Shown here: positions 32,975 through 58,157 of the stretch, in pieces
Position numbering within the stretch: the stretch's first letter is position 1
Layout: each line of letters opens with the position of its first letter
DNA from: Lacibacter sp. H407
GTDB taxonomy: Bacteria; Bacteroidota; Bacteroidia; Chitinophagales; Chitinophagaceae
Direction: 5' to 3'
Assembly: GCF_037892605.1 (NCBI RefSeq)
Contig: NZ_JBBKTU010000001.1
Coordinates: 3,348,001-3,412,000, forward strand
Length of the DNA: 64,000 nt
The notes under the pieces: generated by a model
Databases searched by the model: none
The model's input: only the letters and a program-made list of their open reading frames with translations
What the model was told of the DNA's origin: nothing
Made by a program: the position numbers and the translations under genes

Positions 32975-33424
32975 TTATTGCCTTGTCCACGTATCTGTTC
33001 TTCCAATCAATGATACACCAATATAGCCCCTCACTTTGATTACATTATTGCTTTCCATGGCAACCTTGCAAGAATACGTTTTGCCATTTTTTGGATCATA
33101 AATTTTTCCGCCCGTCCATTCGTTTTTATCAGTGTATTTGAATCCCCACATATTTACTAGACCCAAAACAGGGCGTGAATGATTCTTTTCTTCAGGGTGG
33201 TTGATATCTGTTTTTGGTTTGCCTGTTTTAGGATCGTTGGGCTCTTTTAACCAGGTGATCTTCCCCTGGTACTTGTCACCATTCTTATAGATCTGGATAA
33301 TGCCGGTGCCTTCGCCATTTTTCCAGCTACCAACAATGGCATCAGGGTTATCTTGTTTTACAGCAAACGAAGAGATGACTAACAAAAAGCAAACAGTCAG
33401 AGTTGCAAGAATGATTTTTTTCAT
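32975..33424 (-). CDS. DUF2147 family secreted protein
   Basis: A 149-residue protein with signal peptide (residues 1-21, LLVISSFAV). The mature part has the DUF2147 pattern IVGSWKNGEGTGIIQIYKNGDKYQGKITWL..., GFKYTDKNEWTGGKIYDPKNGKTYSCKV and KVRGYIGVSLIGRTDTWTR. Family knowledge: small lipocalin-like beta-barrel proteins of unknown role in the periplasm. The gap to its right contains an inverted repeat and then the trp promoter in the opposite direction. The gap to its left (32882-32974) holds AT-rich, degenerate AAATTCCA-type repeats. Confidence 0.88.
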   Translation of the reverse strand: MKKIILATLTVCFLLVISSFAVKQDNPDAIVGSWKNGEGTGIIQIYKNGDKYQGKITWLKEPNDPKTGKPKTDINHPEEKNHSRPVLGLVNMWGFKYTDKNEWTGGKIYDPKNGKTYSCKVAMESNNVIKVRGYIGVSLIGRTDTWTRQ

Positions 33425-33447: not shown

Positions 33448-33500
33448 AGACCTATGAGGTTTGCCGGACGGGGTCGCTGCGCTGCAAACCTCATAGGTCT
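33448..33500. repeat. REP-like element: 17-bp perfect inverted repeat
   Basis: The arms AGACCTATGAGGTTTGC (33448-33464) and GCAAACCTCATAGGTCT (33484-33500) are exact reverse complements around a 19-base GC-rich centre. It lies 23 bases upstream of the DUF2147 start and before the trp promoter. Such palindromes are typical of dispersed intergenic elements in Bacteroidota; no second copy was seen in this window. Confidence 0.7.
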
Positions 33501-33564: not shown

Positions 33565-33596
33565 TTTGATTATTTAACTGTCATACAACATCTTTG
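33565..33596 (+). promoter_or_regulatory. candidate promoter of the trp operon
   Basis: TTTG (33565-33568), 20 bases, then CATCTTTG (33589-33596), one mismatch from the Bacteroidota -7 consensus TAnnTTTG. The predicted start is about 33602, just before the leader peptide ATG at 33604. The spacing of 20 equals that of the promoter in front of tRNA-Ser (53704-53735). Confidence 0.5.
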
Positions 33597-33603
33597 CAAC
33601 ACA

Positions 33604-33663
33604 ATGAACAAAGCAATTGTAAATAATCAGTGGTGGTGGCATACAACTCTAAGGGGTCTGTAA
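33604..33663 (+). CDS. trpL: tryptophan operon leader peptide
   Basis: A 19-codon frame MNKAIVNNQWWWHTTLRGL with three consecutive Trp codons (33631-33639) and TAA at 33661-33663. It precedes trpE by 90 bases and ends just before the attenuator stems. Three Trp codons in a row in a 19-residue peptide in front of trpE cannot reasonably be chance. When charged tRNA-Trp is scarce the ribosome should stall on these codons and leave the downstream segment 33653-33658 free to pair. Confidence 0.9.
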   Translation: MNKAIVNNQWWWHTTLRGL

Positions 33664-33721
33664 TACTATTACTGTGATTGTTCCAATCATATTCTGACCC
33701 CGAATTACTTCGGGGTTTTTT
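33653..33721 (+). promoter_or_regulatory. trp attenuator (antiterminator and terminator)
   Basis: Terminator: stem ACCCCGAA (33697-33704) with TTCGGGGT (33709-33716), loop TTAC, then six T (33716-33721). Antiterminator: GGGGTC (33653-33658), inside the last codons of the leader peptide, is perfectly complementary to GACCCC (33696-33701), the left arm of the terminator. Between them lies a small hairpin TGATTG/CAATCA (33675-33689) that would bring the antiterminator arms together. A ribosome reaching the leader stop covers GGGGTC and lets the terminator form; one stalled at Trp codons does not. The geometry fits classical leader-peptide attenuation. Confidence 0.88.
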
Positions 33722-33753: not shown

Positions 33754-35169
33754 ATGAAGAAAATTAAGATAGAAACGACTTGCAAAAAAATGCTGGCAGA
33801 TGTGTTCACTCCTGTCGGTATTTATCTACGTCTGAGGGATCGCTTCAGGGATACCATCCTGCTGGAAAGTACAGATCATCATGCAGCAGAAAACAGCTGG
33901 TCGTTTATTGGTATCAATGCGATAGCGGGGATGGAGATCAGCTCCACCACAAGCATTGAATTTAAATTGCCCGGACAAAAGCCTGAACGTATTGCCATCA
34001 AACAGCCAACGGAGGTGCCGCAGCAACTGTATGATTTCATGAATCGCTTTGAAGCAAGCGGCGATTGCAAAGAAGCAAAATTTGCACAGGGTCTTTATGG
34101 CTATACAACTTACGATGCAGTACAATTCTTCGATACTATCAAACTGAATGCAGAACGAAAAGATCCGGCTGCTATTCCGTTAATGCGTTACCGTTTGTAT
34201 CAATACGTGATTGCTATCAATCATCATAAAGATGAATTGTTCATTTGTGAAAACAAGATCGCAGGTATTGAAAGCGATGTGGCGGTTGTAGAAAGTTTGA
34301 TCCGCAGTAAAGATGTTCCTGTTTATCCGTTTGCAGTAAAAGGTGAAGAAAGTTCCAATGTAACCAATGAAGAATATGTGGAGATGGTGAAGAAAGGCAT
34401 AGCCAGTTGCCATCGTGGTGATGTGTTCCAAATTGTTTTGAGCAGAAGGTTTCAGCAATCGTTCAGTGGCGATGAGTTTAATGTGTATCGTGCATTACGC
34501 AGCATCAATCCTTCTCCTTATTTATTCTTTTTCGATTATGGCGATTATAAATTAATGGGTTCATCGCCTGAATCGCAGATCATCATTAATAATGGTAAAG
34601 CTGTTGTTCATCCCATCGCAGGTACATTTAAACGCACAGGTGATGATGAAATTGATCAACGAGAAGCAGCCCGTTTACTGGAAGATGCAAAAGAAAATGC
34701 CGAGCATGTAATGTTGGTTGATCTTGCAAGAAATGATCTCAGTCGGGTGTGTGATGATGTAAGTGTGGCACATTACCGGCAGGTACAGTATTACAGTCAT
34801 GTGATTCATTTGGTAAGTGAAGTGGTGGCGAAGGTTCGTCCCAACTCTAATCCGTTTGAATTATTAGCCAAAACATTTCCTGCAGGTACGTTAAGTGGCG
34901 CACCAAAAATTAAAGCAATGCAATTGATTGACGCAAACGAACCAACAGCCCGTAGTTATTATGGTGGAGGTATCGGCTTTATGGGTTTTGATGGTAGCTG
35001 CAATCATGCCATCATGATCCGTACGTTCATGAGCCGTCAAAATACATTGGTCTATCAAGCTGGTGCAGGTGTAGTAGCAGCAAGTAAACCTGAAAGTGAA
35101 TTGCAGGAAGTGAATAATAAGTTAGGAGCATTAAAGAAAGCAATTGAGTTTGCGGAAAGCATTCGTTAA
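33754..35169 (+). CDS. trpE: anthranilate synthase component I
   Basis: A 471-residue chorismate-binding enzyme that, with TrpG, makes anthranilate from chorismate and glutamine. The N-terminal feedback site LLEST (Leu36-Thr40, Ser39 equivalent to Ser40 of Salmonella TrpE) is intact, so end-product inhibition by tryptophan is expected. The catalytic half shows RGDVFQIVLSRRF, PIAGTFKRTGDDEID, DLARNDLSRV, FPAGTLSGAPKIKAMQ and GGGIGFMG. It is the first structural gene after the attenuator. Confidence 0.97.
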   Translation: MKKIKIETTCKKMLADVFTPVGIYLRLRDRFRDTILLESTDHHAAENSWSFIGINAIAGMEISSTTSIEFKLPGQKPERIAIKQPTEVPQQLYDFMNRFEASGDCKEAKFAQGLYGYTTYDAVQFFDTIKLNAERKDPAAIPLMRYRLYQYVIAINHHKDELFICENKIAGIESDVAVVESLIRSKDVPVYPFAVKGEESSNVTNEEYVEMVKKGIASCHRGDVFQIVLSRRFQQSFSGDEFNVYRALRSINPSPYLFFFDYGDYKLMGSSPESQIIINNGKAVVHPIAGTFKRTGDDEIDQREAARLLEDAKENAEHVMLVDLARNDLSRVCDDVSVAHYRQVQYYSHVIHLVSEVVAKVRPNSNPFELLAKTFPAGTLSGAPKIKAMQLIDANEPTARSYYGGGIGFMGFDGSCNHAIMIRTFMSRQNTLVYQAGAGVVAASKPESELQEVNNKLGALKKAIEFAESIR

Positions 35170-35190
35170 TAGTTGATGAACCATAACACA

Positions 35191-35769
35191 ATGAAAATTT
35201 TAGTATTCGATAACTACGACAGCTTTACATACAACCTTGTCCATTTGGTGGAGAAGATCACACATATAAAAGTAGATGTGTATCGTAACGACCAGATTCC
35301 ATTGGAAAAGGTGAAAGACTATGATAAGATTATTTTATCACCGGGTCCCGGTATTCCTGAAGAAGCAGGCTTGTTGTTGCCATTGATCAAAGAATATGCA
35401 GCAACAAAATCTATTCTGGGTGTATGTTTAGGTCACCAGGCAATTGGTGAAGCATTTGGTGGAACGTTGACGAATCTGTCAACTGTATTTCATGGAATAG
35501 CTACACCGATAAAAATCCAAAATCCAAGATCCAAAAAACAAAATGCTGTGTTGAATGATCTGCCCGATACAATTGAAGTAGGTCGTTATCACAGTTGGGT
35601 AGTAAATAAAGAAGGGTTTCCAGCTGAATTAGAAATAACCGCAGAAGATGAAACAGGAATGATCATGGCATTGCAACATAAAACATTTGATGTGCAGGGT
35701 GTACAGTTTCATCCGGAAAGTGTGTTGACGCCGGTGGGTGAAAGTATTCTTCGAAACTGGCTGGTCTGA
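35191..35769 (+). CDS. trpG: anthranilate synthase component II (glutamine amidotransferase)
   Basis: Class I amidotransferase supplying ammonia to TrpE. The standard start MKILVFDNYDSFTYN is at ATG 35191; in-frame ATG 35176 adds five residues. LSPGPGIPEEAG, catalytic Cys79 in LGVCLGHQAIGEAFGG, and VQFHPESVLTP with the His/Glu of the triad are present. Between residues about 108 and 118 (IQNPRSKKQ) there are several extra residues encoded by a run of ATCCAAA-type units (35512-35543), which looks like an in-frame repeat insertion. The stop TGA lies inside the left inverted repeat of the GxxExxY cassette. Confidence 0.95.
   Translation: MKILVFDNYDSFTYNLVHLVEKITHIKVDVYRNDQIPLEKVKDYDKIILSPGPGIPEEAGLLLPLIKEYAATKSILGVCLGHQAIGEAFGGTLTNLSTVFHGIATPIKIQNPRSKKQNAVLNDLPDTIEVGRYHSWVVNKEGFPAELEITAEDETGMIMALQHKTFDVQGVQFHPESVLTPVGESILRNWLV
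35512..35543 (+). repeat. short ATCCAAA-type repeat inside trpG
   Basis: AAAATCCAAAATCCAAGATCC followed by A-rich sequence. The same flavour of sequence (AAATTCCAAATTCCAAA) occurs in the gap at 32893. It encodes about eight residues that break an otherwise well conserved part of TrpG just before LPDTIEVGRYHSW. Confidence 0.5.
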
Positions 35770-35828: not shown

Positions 35829-36272
35829 ATGCCGGAATTTAAATATGGTGACATAACTGAGAAGATTATCGGCGCCTGTTTTAAAGTACATAGCACACTC
35901 GGGAATGGATTCCAGGAAGTTATCTATCAACGTGCGTTAGAGCTGGAGTTGAAATTAATTCCATTAGATTATGCCCGTGAGTTTGAAATGCCGATTTATT
36001 ATCTCGATCAGCAGATAGGAACGAGAAGGGTAGATTTCTTAATTGACAATAAAATAAGTGTTGAATTGAAAGCAATCATAAAATTGGAGGATGTTCATTT
36101 TGCTCAGGCGATGAATTATTTAGAAGCGTATAATCTTGAAGTAGGTTTGCTGATTAATTTCGGAAGTAAACGAATGGAATTTCACCGGTTTGCAAACAAG
36201 AAATATAACCCTGCAGTTTTCTTACATCCCAATCATCCAACAAATCCTAAAAATCCCAGTTCAGACAAATGA
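35829..36272 (+). CDS. GxxExxY family protein, PD-(D/E)xK nuclease-like
   Basis: A 147-residue protein with the family-defining motif GNGFQEVIYQ (Gly27-Glu30-Tyr33) after HSTLG. Residues RRVDFLIDNKISVELKAI contain Asp69, Glu79 and Lys81 in the D...ExK arrangement of PD-(D/E)xK nucleases. The last 18 residues (HPNHPTNPKNPSSDK end) are encoded by the right inverted-repeat region and look like repeat read-through rather than fold. Function of this common Bacteroidota family is unknown. It has no relation to tryptophan synthesis and is a cassette insert between trpG and trpD. Confidence 0.9.
   Translation: MPEFKYGDITEKIIGACFKVHSTLGNGFQEVIYQRALELELKLIPLDYAREFEMPIYYLDQQIGTRRVDFLIDNKISVELKAIIKLEDVHFAQAMNYLEAYNLEVGLLINFGSKRMEFHRFANKKYNPAVFLHPNHPTNPKNPSSDK
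36253..36266 (-). repeat. right terminal inverted repeat of GxxExxY cassette
   Basis: ATCCCAGTTCAGAC, exact reverse complement of the left repeat; it lies inside the 3' end of the GxxExxY frame, three bases before the trpD start. Confidence 0.75.
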
Positions 36273-37264
36273 AAAAGATACTTCAGTTACTATTCGAACA
36301 TAAAAGCCTTGATCGTCAACAAGCGAAAGAAGTGTTGTTGAACATCGGCAAAGCCATGTACAACGAACATGAGATCACTGCTTTTATGACGGTGTATCTC
36401 ATGCGGAGCATTACAATAGAAGAACTGCAGGGTTTCCGTGATGCATTGCTGGAGCTTTGTGTACCGGTTGATCTCAATGGACATGCAGTGCTTGATATTG
36501 TTGGCACTGGTGGTGATGGAAAAAACACCTTCAACATTTCTACACTCTCTTGTTTTATTGTTGCAGGTGCCGGACAAAAAGTTGCCAAGCATGGTAACTA
36601 TGGTGCATCAACCATCAGTGGTGCAAGTAATGTAATGGAGCAGCTGGGTTATAAATTCAAGAACAATGTTGATCAGTTGAAACGTGAAGTGGAAGAAGCA
36701 AATATCTGTTTCATGCATGCACCGATGTTTCATCCGGCATTAAAAACAGTTGGCCCTATCCGTAAGAATCTTGGGATGCGTACCTTCTTTAATATGCTGG
36801 GCCCAATGGTGAATCCTGCAAGTCCGGCGTATCAGTTGGTGGGCGTATTTAGTTTGGAGATGGCGAGAGTGTACAATTATTTATTGCAGCAAGCAGGTGG
36901 TGCATTCACCATTATTCATAGTCTTGATGGATATGATGAGATTTCATTGACCAACGATACAAAAGTGATCACCAATAAAGGCGAGTTTATCATGACACCT
37001 GAGCAGTTAGGCAAACGTATGGTACAGCAAACTGATATACATGGTGGCAACAGCATTGAAGAAGCAGCGAAGATCTTCACGAAAATATTAAGTGGCGAAG
37101 GCACATGGGCACAGAATGCGGTGGTCATGGCGAATGCAGCTATGGGTTTGTATTGCACTGGTGCTTATAAAACTTATGATGATGCATTTGCAGCCGCAGT
37201 TGAAAGCTTGGAAAGTGGAAGAGCGAATGGATGTTTGAAAAAACTGATTGAGTTGAATAATTAA
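36269..37264 (+). CDS. trpD: anthranilate phosphoribosyltransferase
   Basis: A 331-residue enzyme joining anthranilate to phosphoribosyl pyrophosphate. It shows the PRPP-binding motif DIVGTGGDGKNTFNIST (about 74-90), KHGNYGASTISGASNVME, and MHAPMFHPALKTVGPIRKNLGMRTFFNMLGP split motifs typical of TrpD. The start overlaps the stop of the cassette gene by ATGA, so translation is coupled to a foreign insert. Length and motifs are normal. Confidence 0.96.
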   Translation: MKKILQLLFEHKSLDRQQAKEVLLNIGKAMYNEHEITAFMTVYLMRSITIEELQGFRDALLELCVPVDLNGHAVLDIVGTGGDGKNTFNISTLSCFIVAGAGQKVAKHGNYGASTISGASNVMEQLGYKFKNNVDQLKREVEEANICFMHAPMFHPALKTVGPIRKNLGMRTFFNMLGPMVNPASPAYQLVGVFSLEMARVYNYLLQQAGGAFTIIHSLDGYDEISLTNDTKVITNKGEFIMTPEQLGKRMVQQTDIHGGNSIEEAAKIFTKILSGEGTWAQNAVVMANAAMGLYCTGAYKTYDDAFAAAVESLESGRANGCLKKLIELNN

Positions 37265-37357: not shown

Positions 37358-38149
37358 ATGAATATTTTAGAGAAGATCATAGTTCAGAAACGAATTGAAG
37401 TAGAAGAGCGTAAAGCAAAAACCAGTGTGGCTGAATTGCAGCAACAGCCACTGTATGCAAGACCTGTTCTTTCGTTGAAACAGTTTCTGCTCGATGATAC
37501 AAAGACAGGTATTATTGCAGAGTTCAAACGTCAATCGCCATCCAAAGGTGTGATCAATGGCAAAGCTGATGTTGTGGAAGTAACAACTGCTTACACAAAC
37601 AACGGTGCATCCTGTTTGAGTGTGTTGACTGATGAACAGTTCTTTGGCGGCAGCACAAATGATCTGCTGAAAGCAAGAGTGAACGAAATTCCTATCTTAC
37701 GGAAAGACTTCATTGTTGATGAATACCAGATCACAGAAGCAAAGGCAATGGGTGCTGATGTAATTTTGCTCATCGCTGCCTGTTTAAACCCTGCAGAAGT
37801 GAAACGATTAGCGACCTTTGCAAAATCGCTTGGGCTGGAAGTGTTGCTGGAACTGCATACAGAAGAAGAGCTGGAGCATATTTGTGAGGAAACGGAAATC
37901 GTTGGCATCAACAACCGCAACCTCAAAACATTTGAAGTGGATATTGAACGTAGTTTGCGCATGGCCAAACAAATTCCGGCAGATAAAATTAAAGTAGCGG
38001 AGAGCGGCATCAGTTCCGTTGAAAATATATTATTGTTCAAAGCAAACGGGTTCAGAGGATTTTTGATTGGTGAGAATTTTATGAAAGAAGAAAATCCCGG
38101 AAAAGCATTTGAACAATTCACACAACAATTAAAAAAAGCAGAAGCATGA
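37358..38149 (+). CDS. trpC: indole-3-glycerol phosphate synthase
   Basis: A 263-residue TIM-barrel decarboxylase/cyclase making indole-3-glycerol phosphate. Motifs: IIAEFKRQSPSKGVI (catalytic Glu and Lys near residue 50-53), LSVLTDEQFFGGS, ILRKDFIVDEYQI, GINNRNLKTFEVD and AESGIS, all as expected. It overlaps trpF1 by ATGA (38146-38149). In many Proteobacteria trpC and trpF are fused; here they are separate. Confidence 0.96.
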   Translation: MNILEKIIVQKRIEVEERKAKTSVAELQQQPLYARPVLSLKQFLLDDTKTGIIAEFKRQSPSKGVINGKADVVEVTTAYTNNGASCLSVLTDEQFFGGSTNDLLKARVNEIPILRKDFIVDEYQITEAKAMGADVILLIAACLNPAEVKRLATFAKSLGLEVLLELHTEEELEHICEETEIVGINNRNLKTFEVDIERSLRMAKQIPADKIKVAESGISSVENILLFKANGFRGFLIGENFMKEENPGKAFEQFTQQLKKAEA

Positions 38150-38772
38150 ATATTAAAGTTTGCGGTATTACCCAATTGAAACAGGTACAACAGTTAGAAG
38201 GATTGGATATTGATTTTGTCGGATTTATTTTCGACAAGAATTCTCCCCGTTATGTAGAAGGAAAGCTGGATAAGATAGAGATCAAGAAAGCGGATTACGA
38301 CATGAAGAAAGTAGGCGTGTTTGTGAATCCATCATACAGCGATATCCTCGATGCCATTGAAGATTACGGTTTGGATGTAGTGCAATTGCATGGCGAAGAA
38401 ACACCTGAGTTTTGTTCTGATCTTAACGAAGATGTGGAAGTGATCAAAGTATTTCATATTGATGAATCGGTGAAAGATATTGATGCGTTGGTAGCACCTT
38501 ATGATGAAGCTTGTGATTATTATTTGTTCGATACAAAAAGCGGAGACAAGAAAGGTGGCACCGGCAAACAATTCGACTGGGATGTTATTGCAAAAAGCAA
38601 AATTGAAAAACCGTTTTTCCTGAGTGGTGGTATTGGTATTGAAGATGTAAAACGGATCAAAGCATTTAAGCACCCTGATTTTTATGGTGTGGATGTTAAC
38701 AGCAAAGTTGAGAAAGCACCCGGTGAAAAAGATATGAGTTTGGTGCTGCAGTTTAAGTTAGGGATGAAATAG
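38146..38772 (+). CDS. trpF: phosphoribosylanthranilate isomerase, copy 1
   Basis: A 208-residue (beta-alpha)8 isomerase (Amadori rearrangement before TrpC). The catalytic Cys is in KVCGIT (Cys5) and the general acid Asp in FDTKSGDKKGGTGK. VGVFVN, VVQLHGEE, FFLSGGIG and GVDVNSKVEKAPGEKD phosphate- and substrate-binding segments are complete. It is translationally coupled to trpC. Its stop codon TAG overlaps a sequence related to the cassette repeat. Confidence 0.95.
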   Translation: MNIKVCGITQLKQVQQLEGLDIDFVGFIFDKNSPRYVEGKLDKIEIKKADYDMKKVGVFVNPSYSDILDAIEDYGLDVVQLHGEETPEFCSDLNEDVEVIKVFHIDESVKDIDALVAPYDEACDYYLFDTKSGDKKGGTGKQFDWDVIAKSKIEKPFFLSGGIGIEDVKRIKAFKHPDFYGVDVNSKVEKAPGEKDMSLVLQFKLGMK

Positions 38773-38861: not shown

Positions 38862-39497
38862 ATGAGAATTAAAGTTTGCGGCATGACCGATTTGCAACAG
38901 ATGCACCAATTAGGAGAAATGGGTGTTGAATTTGCCGGAATGATCTTTTACCACAAATCGCCGAGGTTTGTGTTAAAGCATTTAAATGGTGTACAGGTGA
39001 AACGGGCGAAGCTGAAAGTGTACAAGGTGGGTGTGTTTGTAAATGCGTCGTATGATGAGATCATTAATCATGTAGAAAATTTTGGGTTGGATATGGTGCA
39101 GCTGCATGGTGATGAAACGCCGAAGTTCTGTGAAAAGGTATCGGATTACATTTCGGTGATCAAAGCATTCCGCATCACTGATGATGATAATATTCCCTGG
39201 AAGATCAAAGATTATGTGGAAGCGGTGGATATGTACATGTTCGATACGATGGGTGCAGGTTACGGCGGCACAGGAAAAAAGTTTAACTGGAACATGCTGA
39301 AAGGCTTGAACATCGGCAAACCGTTCTTCTTAAGCGGAGGAATTGAGCCAACCGATGCAGCAGCGATCAAGGAATTTGCAAAGGAAGAAGTAGCAAAAGA
39401 TCTGTTTGCATTGGACATGAACAGTAAGTTTGAAACGATGCCCGGAGTAAAAGATATGGAATTGGTGAAGAGGTTTGTGGGAGAGTTGAGAAGATGA
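38862..39497 (+). CDS. trpF: phosphoribosylanthranilate isomerase paralog, copy 2
   Basis: A 211-residue protein clearly homologous to copy 1 over its full length. Catalytic Cys (KVCGMT, Cys6) and Asp (MFDTMGAGYGGTGK) are kept, as are VGVFVNASYDEII, MVQLHGDETPKFC, FFLSGGIEP and LDMNSKFETMPGVKD. There is no frameshift or missing motif, so it should be an active isomerase. It may be a true duplicate or have a changed substrate. It follows copy 1 after an 89-base gap containing a solo repeat end. Confidence 0.9.
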   Translation: MRIKVCGMTDLQQMHQLGEMGVEFAGMIFYHKSPRFVLKHLNGVQVKRAKLKVYKVGVFVNASYDEIINHVENFGLDMVQLHGDETPKFCEKVSDYISVIKAFRITDDDNIPWKIKDYVEAVDMYMFDTMGAGYGGTGKKFNWNMLKGLNIGKPFFLSGGIEPTDAAAIKEFAKEEVAKDLFALDMNSKFETMPGVKDMELVKRFVGELRR

Positions 39498-40825: not shown

Positions 40826-42013
40826 ATGATGGAAACAACATATCAAAAACCTTCTTCGCAAGGTTATTACGGAAAATTCGGTGGAGCGTATATTCCTGAA
40901 ATGCTGCATCGAAATGTGGAGGAATTGCAGAGCCGTTACCTCGATATAATGAGCGATGCTGCTTTTCAAAAAGAGTTCAGGGCTTTGCTGAAAGATTATG
41001 TAGGTCGTCCCACGCCGTTATTTTATGCAAAGCGGTTGAGCAAACAATTCAACACCAACATCTGGCTGAAGCGTGAAGATCTTTGTCATACCGGTGCGCA
41101 TAAGATCAATAATACGGTGGGACAAATTTTGCTGGCTGAACGTCTCGGTAAGAAACGCATCATTGCAGAAACAGGTGCGGGACAACATGGTGTGGCAACG
41201 GCAACAGTGTGTGCGTTGAAAGGCGTGGAGTGTATTGTGTACATGGGCGAAAAAGATATTGAACGCCAGGCGCCGAATGTGGCTCGTATGAAAATGTTGG
41301 GCGCAACTGTGGTACCTGCAACAAGCGGCAGTAAAACATTAAAGGATGCAACGAATGAAGCCATTCGTGACTGGATCAATAATCCCAACGATACACATTA
41401 TATCATCGGCAGTGTAGTAGGACCGCATCCGTATCCTGATATGGTGGCGAAGTTTCAAAGTGTGATCAGTGAAGAAATGCGTTGGCAGTTAAAAGAACAT
41501 ACGGGCAAAGATTTACCTACGCATGTAATGGCGTGTGTGGGTGGTGGCAGTAATGCGGCCGGTGCGTTCTATCATTTCTTAGATGAGTTGAGTGTAAAAA
41601 TTATTGCTGTTGAAGCAGCAGGTCATGGTGTGAACAGCGGAATGAGTGCAGCTACCACACAACTTGGTAAGCCGGGTATTTTGCACGGCAGCAAAAGTTT
41701 GTTGATGCAAACAGCAGATGGACAGGTGGTAGAACCACACAGTATTTCAGCGGGATTGGATTATCCGGGTATAGGCCCCATGCATGCAAATTTATTTGAC
41801 AGCGGTCGTGGTATATTTTTAAGTGCAACAGATGAAGAAGCATTGGACGCTGCTTTTGAAGTAAGTAAGCTGGAAGGAATTATTCCGGCGTTGGAAACAG
41901 CGCATGCGTTTGCAGTGTTGCATACTTACAAGTTTAAAGAAGACGACCAGGTGATCATTTGTTTGAGTGGAAGAGGGGATAAGGATTTGGCGACGTATAT
42001 GAAACATTTATAA
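40826..42013 (+). CDS. trpB: tryptophan synthase beta chain
   Basis: A 395-residue PLP enzyme that condenses indole with serine. The PLP Lys is in HTGAHKINNTVGQ (Lys93 from the first ATG), the phosphate loop is GGGSNAAGAFY, and ETGAGQHGVATAT and EPHSISAGLDYPGIGP are conserved. Two ATG codons in a row (40826, 40829) are both possible starts. It is of the standard TrpB1 type, normal in length. Confidence 0.97.
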   Translation: MMETTYQKPSSQGYYGKFGGAYIPEMLHRNVEELQSRYLDIMSDAAFQKEFRALLKDYVGRPTPLFYAKRLSKQFNTNIWLKREDLCHTGAHKINNTVGQILLAERLGKKRIIAETGAGQHGVATATVCALKGVECIVYMGEKDIERQAPNVARMKMLGATVVPATSGSKTLKDATNEAIRDWINNPNDTHYIIGSVVGPHPYPDMVAKFQSVISEEMRWQLKEHTGKDLPTHVMACVGGGSNAAGAFYHFLDELSVKIIAVEAAGHGVNSGMSAATTQLGKPGILHGSKSLLMQTADGQVVEPHSISAGLDYPGIGPMHANLFDSGRGIFLSATDEEALDAAFEVSKLEGIIPALETAHAFAVLHTYKFKEDDQVIICLSGRGDKDLATYMKHL

Positions 42014-42085: not shown

Positions 42086-42856
42086 ATGAGTAGAATTAAA
42101 ACATTATTTGAAAGAAAAAGAAAGAACGTTCTCAACGTGTATTGCACTGCAGGTTATCCGCAGTTGAACAGTACAATTGAAGTCATGAAAGCGTTACAGG
42201 AAAACGGTGCAGATTTAATTGAGCTTGGTATGCCGTACAGCGATCCGTTAGCCGACGGTCCGGTGATACAGAACAGTGGATTAGTTGCATTGGCAAATGG
42301 TATGACGATTGAAACATTGTTCACCCAATTGAAAGATGCACGAAAGGAAATTAACGTGCCAATCATTTTAATGGGTTACATGAATCCTGTATTGCAATAC
42401 GGCTTTGATCGTTTTTGTAAAGAGGCGGCTGCGGTTGGTGTGGATGGGTTAATACTGCCTGATTTGCCGGAATATGAATTTGAAACAGAGTATGGTGCCA
42501 TCATCAAAGCAAATGGGTTGGATTTTATTTTCTTAGTTACTCCTGAAACAAGTGAAGAGCGGATTGAGAAATTAGACAGCTTGAGTACAGGTTTTTTATA
42601 TGCGGTTTCATCTTCATCTACAACAGGCAGCAATCAGAACATGACAGATGTAAATGCATATTTGCTGAAATTAAAAAACATGCAGTTGAAAAATCCTGTG
42701 TTGGTTGGTTTCGGTATTAAAGACAAACAGACTTTTGATACTGCTTGCGCCAATTCAAACGGAGCTATAATTGGTACAGCTTATATTAAAGCATTGGATG
42801 GAACGAATGATGTGGCTGCAACAACAAAAGCATTTCTTGAAACCGTATTATCATGA
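42086..42856 (+). CDS. trpA: tryptophan synthase alpha chain
   Basis: A 256-residue TIM barrel that splits indole-3-glycerol phosphate. Catalytic Glu46 and Asp57 lie in ADLIELGMPYSDPLADGP. ILMGYMNPVLQYG, DGLILPDLPEYE, FLVTPETSEERI and VGFGIKDKQT are conserved. Its stop overlaps the hisH start by ATGA (42853-42856), so hisH translation is coupled to trpA. Confidence 0.97.
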   Translation: MSRIKTLFERKRKNVLNVYCTAGYPQLNSTIEVMKALQENGADLIELGMPYSDPLADGPVIQNSGLVALANGMTIETLFTQLKDARKEINVPIILMGYMNPVLQYGFDRFCKEAAAVGVDGLILPDLPEYEFETEYGAIIKANGLDFIFLVTPETSEERIEKLDSLSTGFLYAVSSSSTTGSNQNMTDVNAYLLKLKNMQLKNPVLVGFGIKDKQTFDTACANSNGAIIGTAYIKALDGTNDVAATTKAFLETVLS

Positions 42857-43512
42857 GTGAAGATAAAAATAGCGGAGTCTCTTCAGTTCCCCCTTCAGGG
42901 GGCGGAAGGGGCACTATAGCAATTGTAAAATACAACGCAGGGAATATTCAGTCGGTGCTGTTTGCACTGGAACGTTTGGGTGTTGATGCAAAAGTGACGG
43001 ATGATCAGGATGAATTATTTGCTGCTGATAAAGTTATCTTCCCCGGTGTGGGTGCTGCACGCAGCGCTATGGATAGTTTGAAAGAGAAAGGTTTGGATGC
43101 TGTCATTAAACAATTAAAGCAACCTGTGCTGGGAATTTGTGTAGGTATGCAGTTGCTGTTTGAACATTCGGAGGAAAGCGATACAACATGCTTGGGAATT
43201 ATTCCAGCGAAGGTGAAGTTATTCAAGAGCGAAGAGATCAGCCCCGACATTCCTATTAAAGTGCCGCAGGTTGGTTGGAATGATATTTACAATCTGAAAA
43301 CCGATCTTTTTAAGAATGTACCGGAACATAGTTATATCTATTATGTGCATAGTTATTATGCGGAAATGAATCCGTATTGCATTGCAACATCAAACTACGG
43401 GTTAGAATATGCAGGCGCTGTACAGAAAGATAATTTTTACGGTGTCCAGTTTCACACGGAGAAAAGTGCGAAAGTGGGAGACCAGATACTCAGCAATTTT
43501 CTCTCCATCTAA
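42853..43512 (+). CDS. hisH: imidazole glycerol phosphate synthase subunit HisH, with extended N-terminus
   Basis: A 219-residue glutaminase that feeds ammonia to HisF. The normal fold starts at TIAIVKYNAGNIQSV (residue 21); PGVGAARSAMDSL, catalytic Cys96 in LGICVGMQLLFEHSEE, and His201/Glu203 in GVQFHTEKS are intact. The first 20 residues (MSEDKNSGVSSVPPSGGGRG) are extra and encoded by a C/G-rich repeat (42889-42912). There is no other start codon between ATG 42853 and the core, so the extension must be translated. No hisF follows in this window. Confidence 0.94.
   Translation: MSEDKNSGVSSVPPSGGGRGTIAIVKYNAGNIQSVLFALERLGVDAKVTDDQDELFAADKVIFPGVGAARSAMDSLKEKGLDAVIKQLKQPVLGICVGMQLLFEHSEESDTTCLGIIPAKVKLFKSEEISPDIPIKVPQVGWNDIYNLKTDLFKNVPEHSYIYYVHSYYAEMNPYCIATSNYGLEYAGAVQKDNFYGVQFHTEKSAKVGDQILSNFLSI
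42889..42912 (+). repeat. CCCCCTTCAGGGGG palindromic repeat inside hisH
   Basis: CCCCC-TTCA-GGGGG (42889-42902), then CGGAAGGGGC. It forms a strong five-pair GC hairpin in the mRNA 36 bases after the hisH start and encodes the PPSGGGRG stretch. A related palindrome CTTCCT-N7-AGGAAG lies at 63777-63795. Confidence 0.6.
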
Positions 43513-43539
43513 TTAATAATTTATAACTGATAATTGATA

Positions 43540-44256
43540 ATGCAAATTATTCCGGCGATAGATATCATTGAAGGCAAATGTGTTCGATTGACAGAAGGAG
43601 ATTATTCTCAGAAAATTATTTACAACGAAAACCCATTAGAGGTAGCCAAAGAATTTGAAGGAGCAGGTCTGCAACGTTTGCACCTGGTTGACCTTGATGG
43701 AGCAAAAGCAGGTGCAGTTAAGAATTGGAAAGTATTAGAAACAATTACTTCTAAAACTTCACTCATTATTGATTTTGGTGGTGGTATTAAGCAGGAAGAA
43801 GATGTAAAGATCGTTCTCAATTCCGGTGCAGCATTGGCAACTGTTGGAAGCATTGCTGTGAAAGATGAAACGAAGTTTGTAAGCTGGCTGGAGCAATTTG
43901 GTGCAGAGAAATTTTTATTAGGCGCTGATGTAAAGAATGAAAAAATTGCTGTAGGCGGTTGGTTAGAAACAACAGATATCTGGATATACGACTTTATAGA
44001 AAAATACATCAATCACGGTGTTCAGCAGATCTTCTGCACCGATGTAAGTAAAGATGGTCGTCTCGAAGGCCCATCAACTGAACTCTATAAAAACATTCTT
44101 CAAAAATTCCCTCAACTGCATTTTATTGCCAGTGGTGGTGTTAGCTCCATGAAAGACCTGGATGAATTAGCCGAGATCGGCTGTAATGGTGCTATCGTCG
44201 GCAAAGCCATTTATGAAGGCAGAGTAACTTTGAATGAATTAAAGAAGTTCAGTTAA
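43540..44256 (+). CDS. hisA: ProFAR isomerase
   Basis: A 238-residue (beta-alpha)8 isomerase of histidine synthesis, 1-(5-phosphoribosyl)-5-[(5-phosphoribosylamino)methylideneamino]imidazole-4-carboxamide isomerase. The catalytic Asp pair is in IPAIDIIEGKCVRL (Asp near residue 8) and CTDVSKDGRLEGPS. LVDLDGAKAG, DFGGGI and ASGGVSSMKDL are conserved. ATG 43540 is chosen over TTG 43534. It is the last gene of the trp-his unit; the next gene is on the other strand and starts to converge two bases later. The rest of the his pathway is not in view. Confidence 0.95.
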   Translation: MQIIPAIDIIEGKCVRLTEGDYSQKIIYNENPLEVAKEFEGAGLQRLHLVDLDGAKAGAVKNWKVLETITSKTSLIIDFGGGIKQEEDVKIVLNSGAALATVGSIAVKDETKFVSWLEQFGAEKFLLGADVKNEKIAVGGWLETTDIWIYDFIEKYINHGVQQIFCTDVSKDGRLEGPSTELYKNILQKFPQLHFIASGGVSSMKDLDELAEIGCNGAIVGKAIYEGRVTLNELKKFS

Positions 44257-57131: not shown

Positions 57132-58157
57132 ATGCCTTTAGCAGTAAAATATAAAAAAACAGAACTTCCGTTTCAATATCCGTTCACGATTTCAAAAGGA
57201 ACAAAAACGCATCAGCCAGCCCTGCTTGTTGAGTTAGAACATCGTGGTGCAAGAGGTTATGGCGAAGCACCTGCCATTGCCTATTATAATCTTCCGGTTG
57301 AAAAAATGATCGAAGACCTGGAACGGAAAAAAATATTCGTGGAGAAATTTGCGTTCACCGATCCGGAACGTTACTGGCATTACCTCCATCATTTATTTCC
57401 GCAAAATCATTTTTTAGTTTGTGCGTTGGATATTGCAACATGGGATATGTATGGCAAACTCCGCAACAAACCTTTGTATCAACTCTGGAATCTGGATTAC
57501 AGCAAAGCGCCATTGTGCGATTATACCATCGGTATTGATACGGTTGAAAAAATGGTAGAGAAGATGAAACAAAAGCCCTGGCCCATTTACAAAATAAAAG
57601 TAGGCGTGCCCGGCGATGTGGAGCTGGTAGCAGCTTTACGAAAACATACTGATGCTGTGTTTCGTGTGGATGCAAATGCAGGATGGACCTTGGACGAAGC
57701 TTTGGAAAAAATTCCGCAGTTGAAAGAACTCGGCGTTGAGTTTGTAGAGCAACCGTTGGCAAAAGATAATTGGGAAGGCATGAAGGTATTGTACAACGAA
57801 TCATCGCTGCCGTTGATTGCAGATGAAGCTTGTGTGTACGAGAGTGATGTGGAGAAATGCTTTAATCATTTCCATGGTATCAATATCAAGTTAACGAAGT
57901 GCAGCGGCATTACGCCTGCCCGACGCATGATCGATAAGGCAAGGGAATTGAATATGAAGACCATGATCGGTTGCATGAATGAATCAACCATTGGTTCAGC
58001 AGCCATCGCTCATTTGGCACCGTTAGTAGATTATATTGACATGGATGGTCCGTTGTTACTGGCTGAAGATGTTGCAACAGGCTTGACGTATGACTATGGA
58101 AAAGTAGCAGTAAGTGATAAGCCTGGATTAGGAATTCAACTGCTCAAAGATTTTTGA
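57132..58157 (+). CDS. dipeptide epimerase (enolase superfamily, L-Ala-D/L-Glu epimerase-like)
   Basis: From ATG 57132 the protein has 341 residues (an earlier in-frame start at 57045 adds a non-conserved 29-residue leader). Muconate-lactonizing/mandelate-racemase fold: IYKIKVG with the KxK catalytic Lys pair, metal ligands in FRVDANAGW (Asp), EFVEQPL (Glu) and LIADEA (Asp), catalytic Lys in NIKLTKCSG, and the epimerase-specific end MNESTIGSA and IDMDGPLLL. Family knowledge: the epimerase recycles murein dipeptides. It stands alone and is followed by a strong terminator. Confidence 0.9.
   Translation: MPLAVKYKKTELPFQYPFTISKGTKTHQPALLVELEHRGARGYGEAPAIAYYNLPVEKMIEDLERKKIFVEKFAFTDPERYWHYLHHLFPQNHFLVCALDIATWDMYGKLRNKPLYQLWNLDYSKAPLCDYTIGIDTVEKMVEKMKQKPWPIYKIKVGVPGDVELVAALRKHTDAVFRVDANAGWTLDEALEKIPQLKELGVEFVEQPLAKDNWEGMKVLYNESSLPLIADEACVYESDVEKCFNHFHGINIKLTKCSGITPARRMIDKARELNMKTMIGCMNESTIGSAAIAHLAPLVDYIDMDGPLLLAEDVATGLTYDYGKVAVSDKPGLGIQLLKDF

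Follow-up and report, generated by a model that had tools for sequence, protein, structure and literature searches.

The leader RNA Bacteroid-trp (RF01692), with NNTWWWNNLRQTS-type peptides before trpE, was described in Bacteroidota in the accessible part of Weinberg et al. 2010, and the Rfam text names it 'Bacteroidete tryptophan peptide leader RNA'. In Flavobacterium psychrophilum, the available portions of the transcriptome-map papers (PMC9723704, PMC6414381) give clues to leader-peptide attenuation of amino-acid operons and place Bacteroid-trp before the trp operon. In the Alphaproteobacterium Sinorhizobium meliloti, according to the accessible sections of PMC7298713, rnTrpL is leaderless with its 5′ end at the trpL ATG, attenuation operates without promoter repression, and a role in trans is reported together with Trp-dependent attenuation. 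In the open-access literature, so far as its accessible text goes, we found no Chitinophagaceae trp attenuator and no phylum-wide survey; Merino et al. 2008 and Lopatovskaya et al. 2010 may hold Bacteroidota predictions. An earlier note on the DNA studied here had called leader-peptide attenuators of this kind best known from Proteobacteria, a statement that RF01692 corrects.

We analysed the trp leader of Lacibacter sp. H407 within a 64,000-nt stretch of DNA (the window), in which the leader and the genes downstream lie on the + strand. We regard the element, with a probability of roughly 93%, as an attenuator of the classical E. coli kind, through which ribosomes control transcription of the trp operon. 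This reading is based on sequence, conservation, covariation, distances and the in silico pairing of truncated transcripts; we infer the transcription start, stalling, termination and the response to tryptophan. Direct reading confirmed a 19-residue leader peptide with three consecutive Trp codons: the trpL ORF (MNKAIVNNQWWWHTTLRGL) runs from an ATG at 33604 to a TAA at 33661-33663 (19 codons), and its Trp codons occupy 33631-33639, within segment 1. The GGGGTC/GACCCC antiterminator overlapping a terminator with six T was also present as the earlier note had it, according to the sequence, a terminator finder and folding. Its 5′ arm (segment 2, GGGGTC, 33653-33658) lies inside the last leader codons, and its 3′ arm (segment 3, GACCCC, 33696-33701) forms the 5′ half of the intrinsic terminator (3:4, 33696-33721), with the stem 33696-33704/33709-33717 and six T at 33716-33721.

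The minimum free energy of the leader was −36.2 kcal/mol (z −3.98), and none of 200 shuffles was as good. In the minimum-energy fold, as in the relatives' consensus, a 1:2 protector hairpin spans 33628-33674. Its lower stem pairs CAGUGGUGGUG (33628-33638) with UACUAUUACUG (33664-33674) and its apical part pairs 33642-33649 with 33654-33657 and 33659-33662, so that the hairpin contains the three Trp codons together with some of the GGGG arm. CAU-ACA-AAC-UC, the conserved codons that follow the Trp run, make up the 5′ side of the apical part. A small spacer hairpin, TGATTG-TTC-CAATCA (33675-33689, stem 33675-33680/33684-33689), was found by folding where a helper hairpin had been proposed to replace a 1:2 stem. 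The hairpin itself exists, but RNAalifold, applied to 55 three-Trp relatives, predicted the same kind of 1:2 hairpin and terminator and no pair at the place of the small one. The idea of a replacement was rejected, as both the minimum-energy fold and this consensus contain the 1:2 stem.

The kind of element is thus known, yet no Rfam model recognises that of the window over its cut-off. Like RF01692, it belongs to Bacteroidota, lies directly 5′ of trpE, carries WWW in an NNxWWW context and holds its Trp codons in a 1:2 stem. RF01692 nevertheless gave no match in the window at E values up to 10, nothing reaching its gathering score of 49 bits. Among 198 Bacteroidota genomes it matched 17 (15 over cut-off), all in a family labelled f5, probably Flavobacteriaceae; it also matched the control genome Bacteroides ihuae and is therefore not confined to f5. 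The RF01692 alignments shown end in the 5′ half of the terminator. The F. psychrophilum case is from Bacteroidota like the window, but from another family and with an RF01692-type element. In the order of its parts, the window's element resembles Trp_leader (RF00513, the E. coli type), which scored 32.2 bits on the leader (E 9e-5 in a 501-nt search, gathering score 41) with the full model aligned weakly. On the organism's own whole genome RF00513 gave no match at E≤0.001, and on the 198 Bacteroidota genomes it gave 0 matches over cut-off and 15 weak ones. In the E. coli trp leader the 5′ arm of the antiterminator lies after the stop codon, unlike in the window, where it is part of the final codons of the leader. 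Most such elements in our sample go unrecognised by Rfam's two trp leader models.

The claim that the element sits directly 5′ of the trp operon was borne out by the genes downstream. The first of them, trpE (anthranilate synthase component I, 33754-35169), begins 90 nt after the leader stop codon and has TIGR00564 as its best family (408.4 bits, below the cut-off of 517.7). It is followed by trpG (35173-35769; TIGR00566, 174.6 bits, above cut-off), trpD (36269-37264; TIGR01245, above cut-off), trpC (37358-38149; NF001377, above cut-off), two trpF-like genes in tandem (38146-38772 and 38862-39497; phosphoribosylanthranilate isomerase as best family, both below cut-off), trpB (40826-42013; TIGR00263, above cut-off) and trpA (42086-42856; PF00290, 250.8 bits). 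A family search identified a GxxExxY / PD-(D/E)XK nuclease-superfamily gene (35829-36272) between trpG and trpD, and a gene without a confident family lies between the second trpF-like gene and trpB. The next upstream ORF (32975-33424) is on the opposite strand, which argues that the terminator belongs to the trp transcript.

The window's TrpE was used to scan named genomes, and conservation was examined in the best 80 loci, which are hence close relatives and, where the family is named, Chitinophagaceae. One locus (L078) was dropped, its contig beginning inside trpE. At all 79 related loci with upstream sequence, trpE is preceded by a terminator and by a short ORF that contains one or more Trp codons in the sensor position. 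The 79 tabulated leaders comprise 78 of these loci and the window, with the ATG picked by rule (near and in frame), so that single cases may err; L080, with a WRW leader, was read by hand and stands outside the partner-swap, codon, geometry and Trp-number tables. Three Trp codons were present in 67 tabulated leaders, two in 6 and one in 6. The one-Trp leaders (L052, L056, L063, L064, L066 and L067) have an NNGWH or NTGWH context and still possess the hairpins, and in a TrpE tree of 40 loci they formed one clade, consistent with 1 change (support 100/100). Judged by its distance to GGGG, the single Trp of this clade would correspond to the third Trp of the others.

The pairing of the three stems was then compared between own and swapped partners in 52 representatives of the 79 leaders, using 2000 permutations that ignore relatedness. 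The own partners were superior for 1:2 (z −4.5), 2:3 (z −5.0) and 3:4 (z −14.8), with 0 of 2000 permutations as good in each case, and the 46 three-Trp representatives alone gave z −3.3, −4.6 and −14.1, respectively. Per species, the effects for 1:2 and 2:3 were modest, the own partner being better than the row median in 37/52 and 38/52, compared with 50/52 for 3:4. In an alignment of 55 leaders (A1), chosen for having three Trp and in which the invariant Trp run is consequently no independent result, 94.6% of the cells were paired and 9 pairs had changed on both sides; none of 500 shuffles, which ignore kinship, was as high, and sliding the partners by 1-3 columns left 39.9-55.7% of the cells paired. 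The seven lower 1:2 pairs showed changes on a single side, the opposite one being fixed by the Trp codons. In the GVL subgroup MAFFT places the GGGG arm one base off, and 2:3 was assessed by permutation rather than by A1 pair counts. The check that the earlier note had suggested, for conserved Trp codons and stem pairing in relatives, thus yielded a leader at 79/79 loci and covariation in three stems.

A covariance model (R1) built from the 55 three-Trp leaders matched 84 of 117 genomes of the family at E≤0.001; E was below 1e-7 for 69 of the 84. In the organism's own genome it gave one strong match, at trpE (E 8e-15), followed by others from E ~1e-3, and the weaker matches may for this reason be chance. 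R1 also misses real cases, as genome G007 has a leader (L092) and no R1 match.

The codons around the Trp run bear on whether the peptide or the RNA is conserved. Among the 52 representatives, Asn at +5 after Trp is encoded by AAC in 29/29, which favours RNA pairing over the peptide, and on this ground we rejected the view that HTNS after the Trp run is kept mainly by selection on the peptide. An arrest peptide of the TnaC kind, in which the nascent chain in the exit tunnel would sense free tryptophan and stall the ribosome, appears improbable to us. It would suit the Asn at −3, before the first Trp, in 41/52 representatives (AAT in 30, AAC in 11, never AAA or AAG), and the existence of one clade whose only Trp stands in NNGWH or NTGWH. 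Downstream of the Trps, however, it seems to be the RNA that is conserved, given the invariant AAC and the place of CAU-ACA-AAC-UC in the 1:2 hairpin, and other residues (Q, N, P, L and more) can take the place of His at +3. In addition, stalling at high free tryptophan would presumably have the wrong sign for a biosynthetic operon with such a layout. The f5 leaders, too, often carry NNTWWW, and RNA structure offers no explanation for the Asn(−3).

The distances in the leaders are in agreement with ribosome-mediated attenuation. GGGG lies in the ORF tail of 63/79 leaders and is absent there in 16/79; in those 63, the last Trp codon is 13-19 nt from GGGG (mode 16, window 13), and in 61/63 GGGG starts 4-9 nt 5′ of the stop codon. 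The footprint of the ribosome was assumed to reach from −14 to +16 relative to the P site. When the last Trp codon occupies the A site, such a ribosome would end 3-9 nt short of GGGG (3 in the window), and at the stop codon it would cover GGGG. Masked folding of transcripts ending before segment 4, usable for 60 of the 79 leaders, revealed that 2:3 was favoured in 59/60 with the ribosome on the last Trp, in 0/60 with the ribosome at the stop and in 12/60 without a ribosome. These distances and folds support, under the assumed footprint, the earlier suggestion that a ribosome at the stop codon hides the antiterminator arm and one stalled on Trp exposes it. In the window's ribosome-free RNA before segment 4, 2:3 stood at 0.65 vs 0.25 for the protector, so that in this model the window is among the leakier leaders and protection without translation may be leaky. 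In full-length RNA at equilibrium, the median for 3:4 was 1.00 in all ribosome states, and with the ribosome at Trp 2:3 exceeded 0.5 in 1/60. The terminator therefore wins at equilibrium in nearly all full-length cases, and antitermination would depend on timing.

A terminator and an antiterminator alone would suit any sensor, and the choice between them might be made by a TRAP-like protein, a T-box tRNA sensor or a Trp riboswitch, with the ORF incidental. Control by TrpR or a T-box was considered, and neither had a match in the organism's own genome: no TrpR match was obtained, and the T-box model (RF00230) gave 0 matches there and none listed in the leader. The lack of T-box matches, together with Trp codons in every tabulated leader and the narrow distances to GGGG and stop, makes such a protein or metabolite sensor very improbable. 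The leader-peptide attenuator reading put forward in the earlier note is supported by the conserved loci, the covariation of three stems, the geometry, the trp operon downstream and the lack of TrpR and T-box matches.

Under ribosome-mediated attenuation, the following sequence of events is proposed. RNA polymerase would begin some 3 nt upstream of the leader ATG, and a ribosome would load on the nearly leaderless RNA and trail the polymerase. When Trp-tRNA is low, the ribosome would stall at the Trp codons and block 1:2, allowing GGGGUC-GACCCC (2:3) to pair before the 3′ half of the terminator exists, with read-through into trpE. With ample Trp-tRNA, the ribosome would reach the stop codon and cover GGGG, 3:4 would form and transcription would probably end at about 33721. 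In the case of no translation, 1:2 would tend to hide GGGG and the terminator would form.

The predicted start rests on promoter elements in the sequence. A TTTG at 33565-33568 in the window is what we take to be the "-33-type" element of Bacteroidota sigma-A, and most relatives carry TTTG at a comparable place. A −7 box, CATCTTTG, lies at 33589-33596 and follows the consensus TAnnTTTG (−12 to −5), with a C replacing its T. In F. psychrophilum the sigma-A box is TAnnTTTG at −12 to −5, according to the accessible text of PMC9723704. This box would place the transcription start at about 33601, so that the 5′ UTR is predicted to measure 3 nt; as a prediction, the earlier proposal of a start almost at the leader ATG stands. 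In the relatives (77 leaders, after leaving out L011, whose leader was misassigned, and L034, at a contig start), TTTG begins 8-13 nt 5′ of the leader ATG in 67/77, exactly 11 nt in 41, vs 9/77 in a control using the same interval 60 nt further upstream. In 64/77, the TTTG nearest to the ATG has a second one 26-30 nt further upstream. Thus a 5′ UTR of 0-5 nt is predicted for 67/77 of the relatives' leaders. TTTG also lies 8-12 nt 5′ of the leader ATG in the families f3, f4 and f10 (8 genomes), and 20-24 nt in 10/18 of the f5 leaders. In F. psychrophilum leaderless messages make up only 5.5% of mapped mRNAs and the median 5′ UTR is 24 nt (accessible text of PMC9723704).

The predicted leaderless start and the Trp codons before trpE(G) liken the window to S. 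meliloti trpL as presented in the accessible sections of PMC7298713; in that Alphaproteobacterium both Trp-dependent attenuation and the role in trans have been reported. A released leader RNA or peptide acting in trans as well, like rnTrpL/peTrpL, would be compatible with attenuation. We think it unlikely for the window, with two observations pointing towards it, namely the predicted nearly leaderless short RNA, as in S. meliloti (same source, in its accessible part), and the Asn(−3) kept with synonymous codons. Ribosome-mediated attenuation works only if the ribosome keeps pace with RNA polymerase. If the proposed start is true, the ribosome would be behind the polymerase from the first codon, implying tight transcription-translation coupling in the window's family. 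In the phylum Bacteroidota, translation initiation is said to proceed mostly without Shine-Dalgarno pairing. For Flavobacterium, the accessible text of PMC9723704 likewise has translation starting mostly without it.

We also examined how widely such leaders occur, seeking TrpE in 198 Bacteroidota genomes. The window's class was represented by 49 sampled genomes (its own included), 45 of which had a clear TrpE. In 44 of these 45, own included, a terminator accompanies a leader ORF containing WW or WxW (WWW in 38); the single miss (L127) proved on inspection to have WWW and a strong hairpin whose T run is interrupted. This frequency makes coupling in Bacteroidota directly testable with a single reporter. 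Forty genomes of other classes were chosen by hand among those listed to cover many families, so that they are not a random draw; a leader was found in 23 of them (WWW in 21, WWLW in L138, only WGW in L149) and none was seen in 17.

Short ORFs and terminators are common, and a chance ORF beside an ordinary terminator has to be considered. Dinucleotide shuffles of the 500 nt 5′ of trpE gave a short ORF with WW or WxW in 98/2000, but a WWW ORF in 1/2000 and a WW/WxW ORF together with a terminator in 3/2000. Furthermore, leaders were seen on the sense strand of 67 of the 85 TrpE regions and on the opposite strand of 0/85. With the covariation of the stems, and with the ORF at 32975-33424 on the other strand, where the terminator serves no upstream gene, coincidence is extremely improbable. 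When both strands of the window were scanned for a terminator combined with a short ORF containing WW/WxW or a residue triplet, 2 places matched, the trp leader and 58041-58157 (LLL), and the Trp-run pattern had two further matches in the window's genome. In a search for further copies, no Trp leader was found around the middle of L203-L205, where there was only one LL ORF with a weak hairpin (L203).

The pairing partner of the ORF tail differs among the leaders. In f5 (RF01692) it pairs mostly with the loop and 3′ half of the terminator, and in the window with the 5′ half. This was tested with 41 hand-listed Chitinophagaceae representatives outside Chitinophaga and 30 loci of f5, f2 and Chitinophaga, with a margin of 2 kcal/mol. 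In the 41 Chitinophagaceae, pairing was better with the 5′ half in 36 and with the loop and 3′ half in 0, and permutations gave z −3.9 (1/2000) for the former and z −0.8 (416/2000) for the latter. In the 30 other loci, the loop and 3′ half were better in 25 and the 5′ half in 0, with z −6.3 (0/2000, 29 distinct) and z +1.0 (1661/2000), respectively. The remainder, 5/41 and 5/30 (L073, L095, L105, L112 and L122), lay within 2 kcal/mol, and the Chitinophaga loci L073-L075 pair weakly either way. An earlier rough sorting, in which 4 Chitinophaga loci had no terminator found and L017 and L028 were grouped with the 3′ half, was repeated with a better terminator finder to give these numbers. Differences between families drive part of the contrast. 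From its sequence, the window is assigned to the classical 5′-half type.

Three features are less ordinary: how broadly the element occurs in the phylum, its predicted, nearly leaderless start and a topology that changes among relatives. We lean slightly towards the view that the trp attenuator is old and nearly universal in Bacteroidota, nearly leaderless in the window's family, and that its antiterminator switched between two topologies, the 5′ half in Chitinophagaceae outside Chitinophaga and the loop and 3′ half in f5, f2 and most Chitinophaga loci. Comparing the two topologies would be a natural way to learn how termination depends on timing and on the placement of the toehold.

Several further observations were made around the operon. 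A motif search found a protein like the GxxExxY product of 35829-36272 in 2 of 80 relatives' stretches (L001 and L011). The two trpF-like genes share one best NCBIfam model, and a duplication is possible. trpA overlaps a class-I glutamine amidotransferase gene, probably hisH-like, which is followed on the same strand by a His_biosynth-family gene (42086-44256 in all), so that the trp transcript may run into histidine genes. Finally, a 51-nt element with perfect inverted arms, AGACCTATGAGGTTTGC ... GCAAACCTCATAGGTCT, lies at 33449-33499 between the divergent gene and the trp promoter. Its 16-nt arm motif has 5 matches in the genome with at most 1 mismatch, 2 of them being these arms and 3 lying elsewhere.
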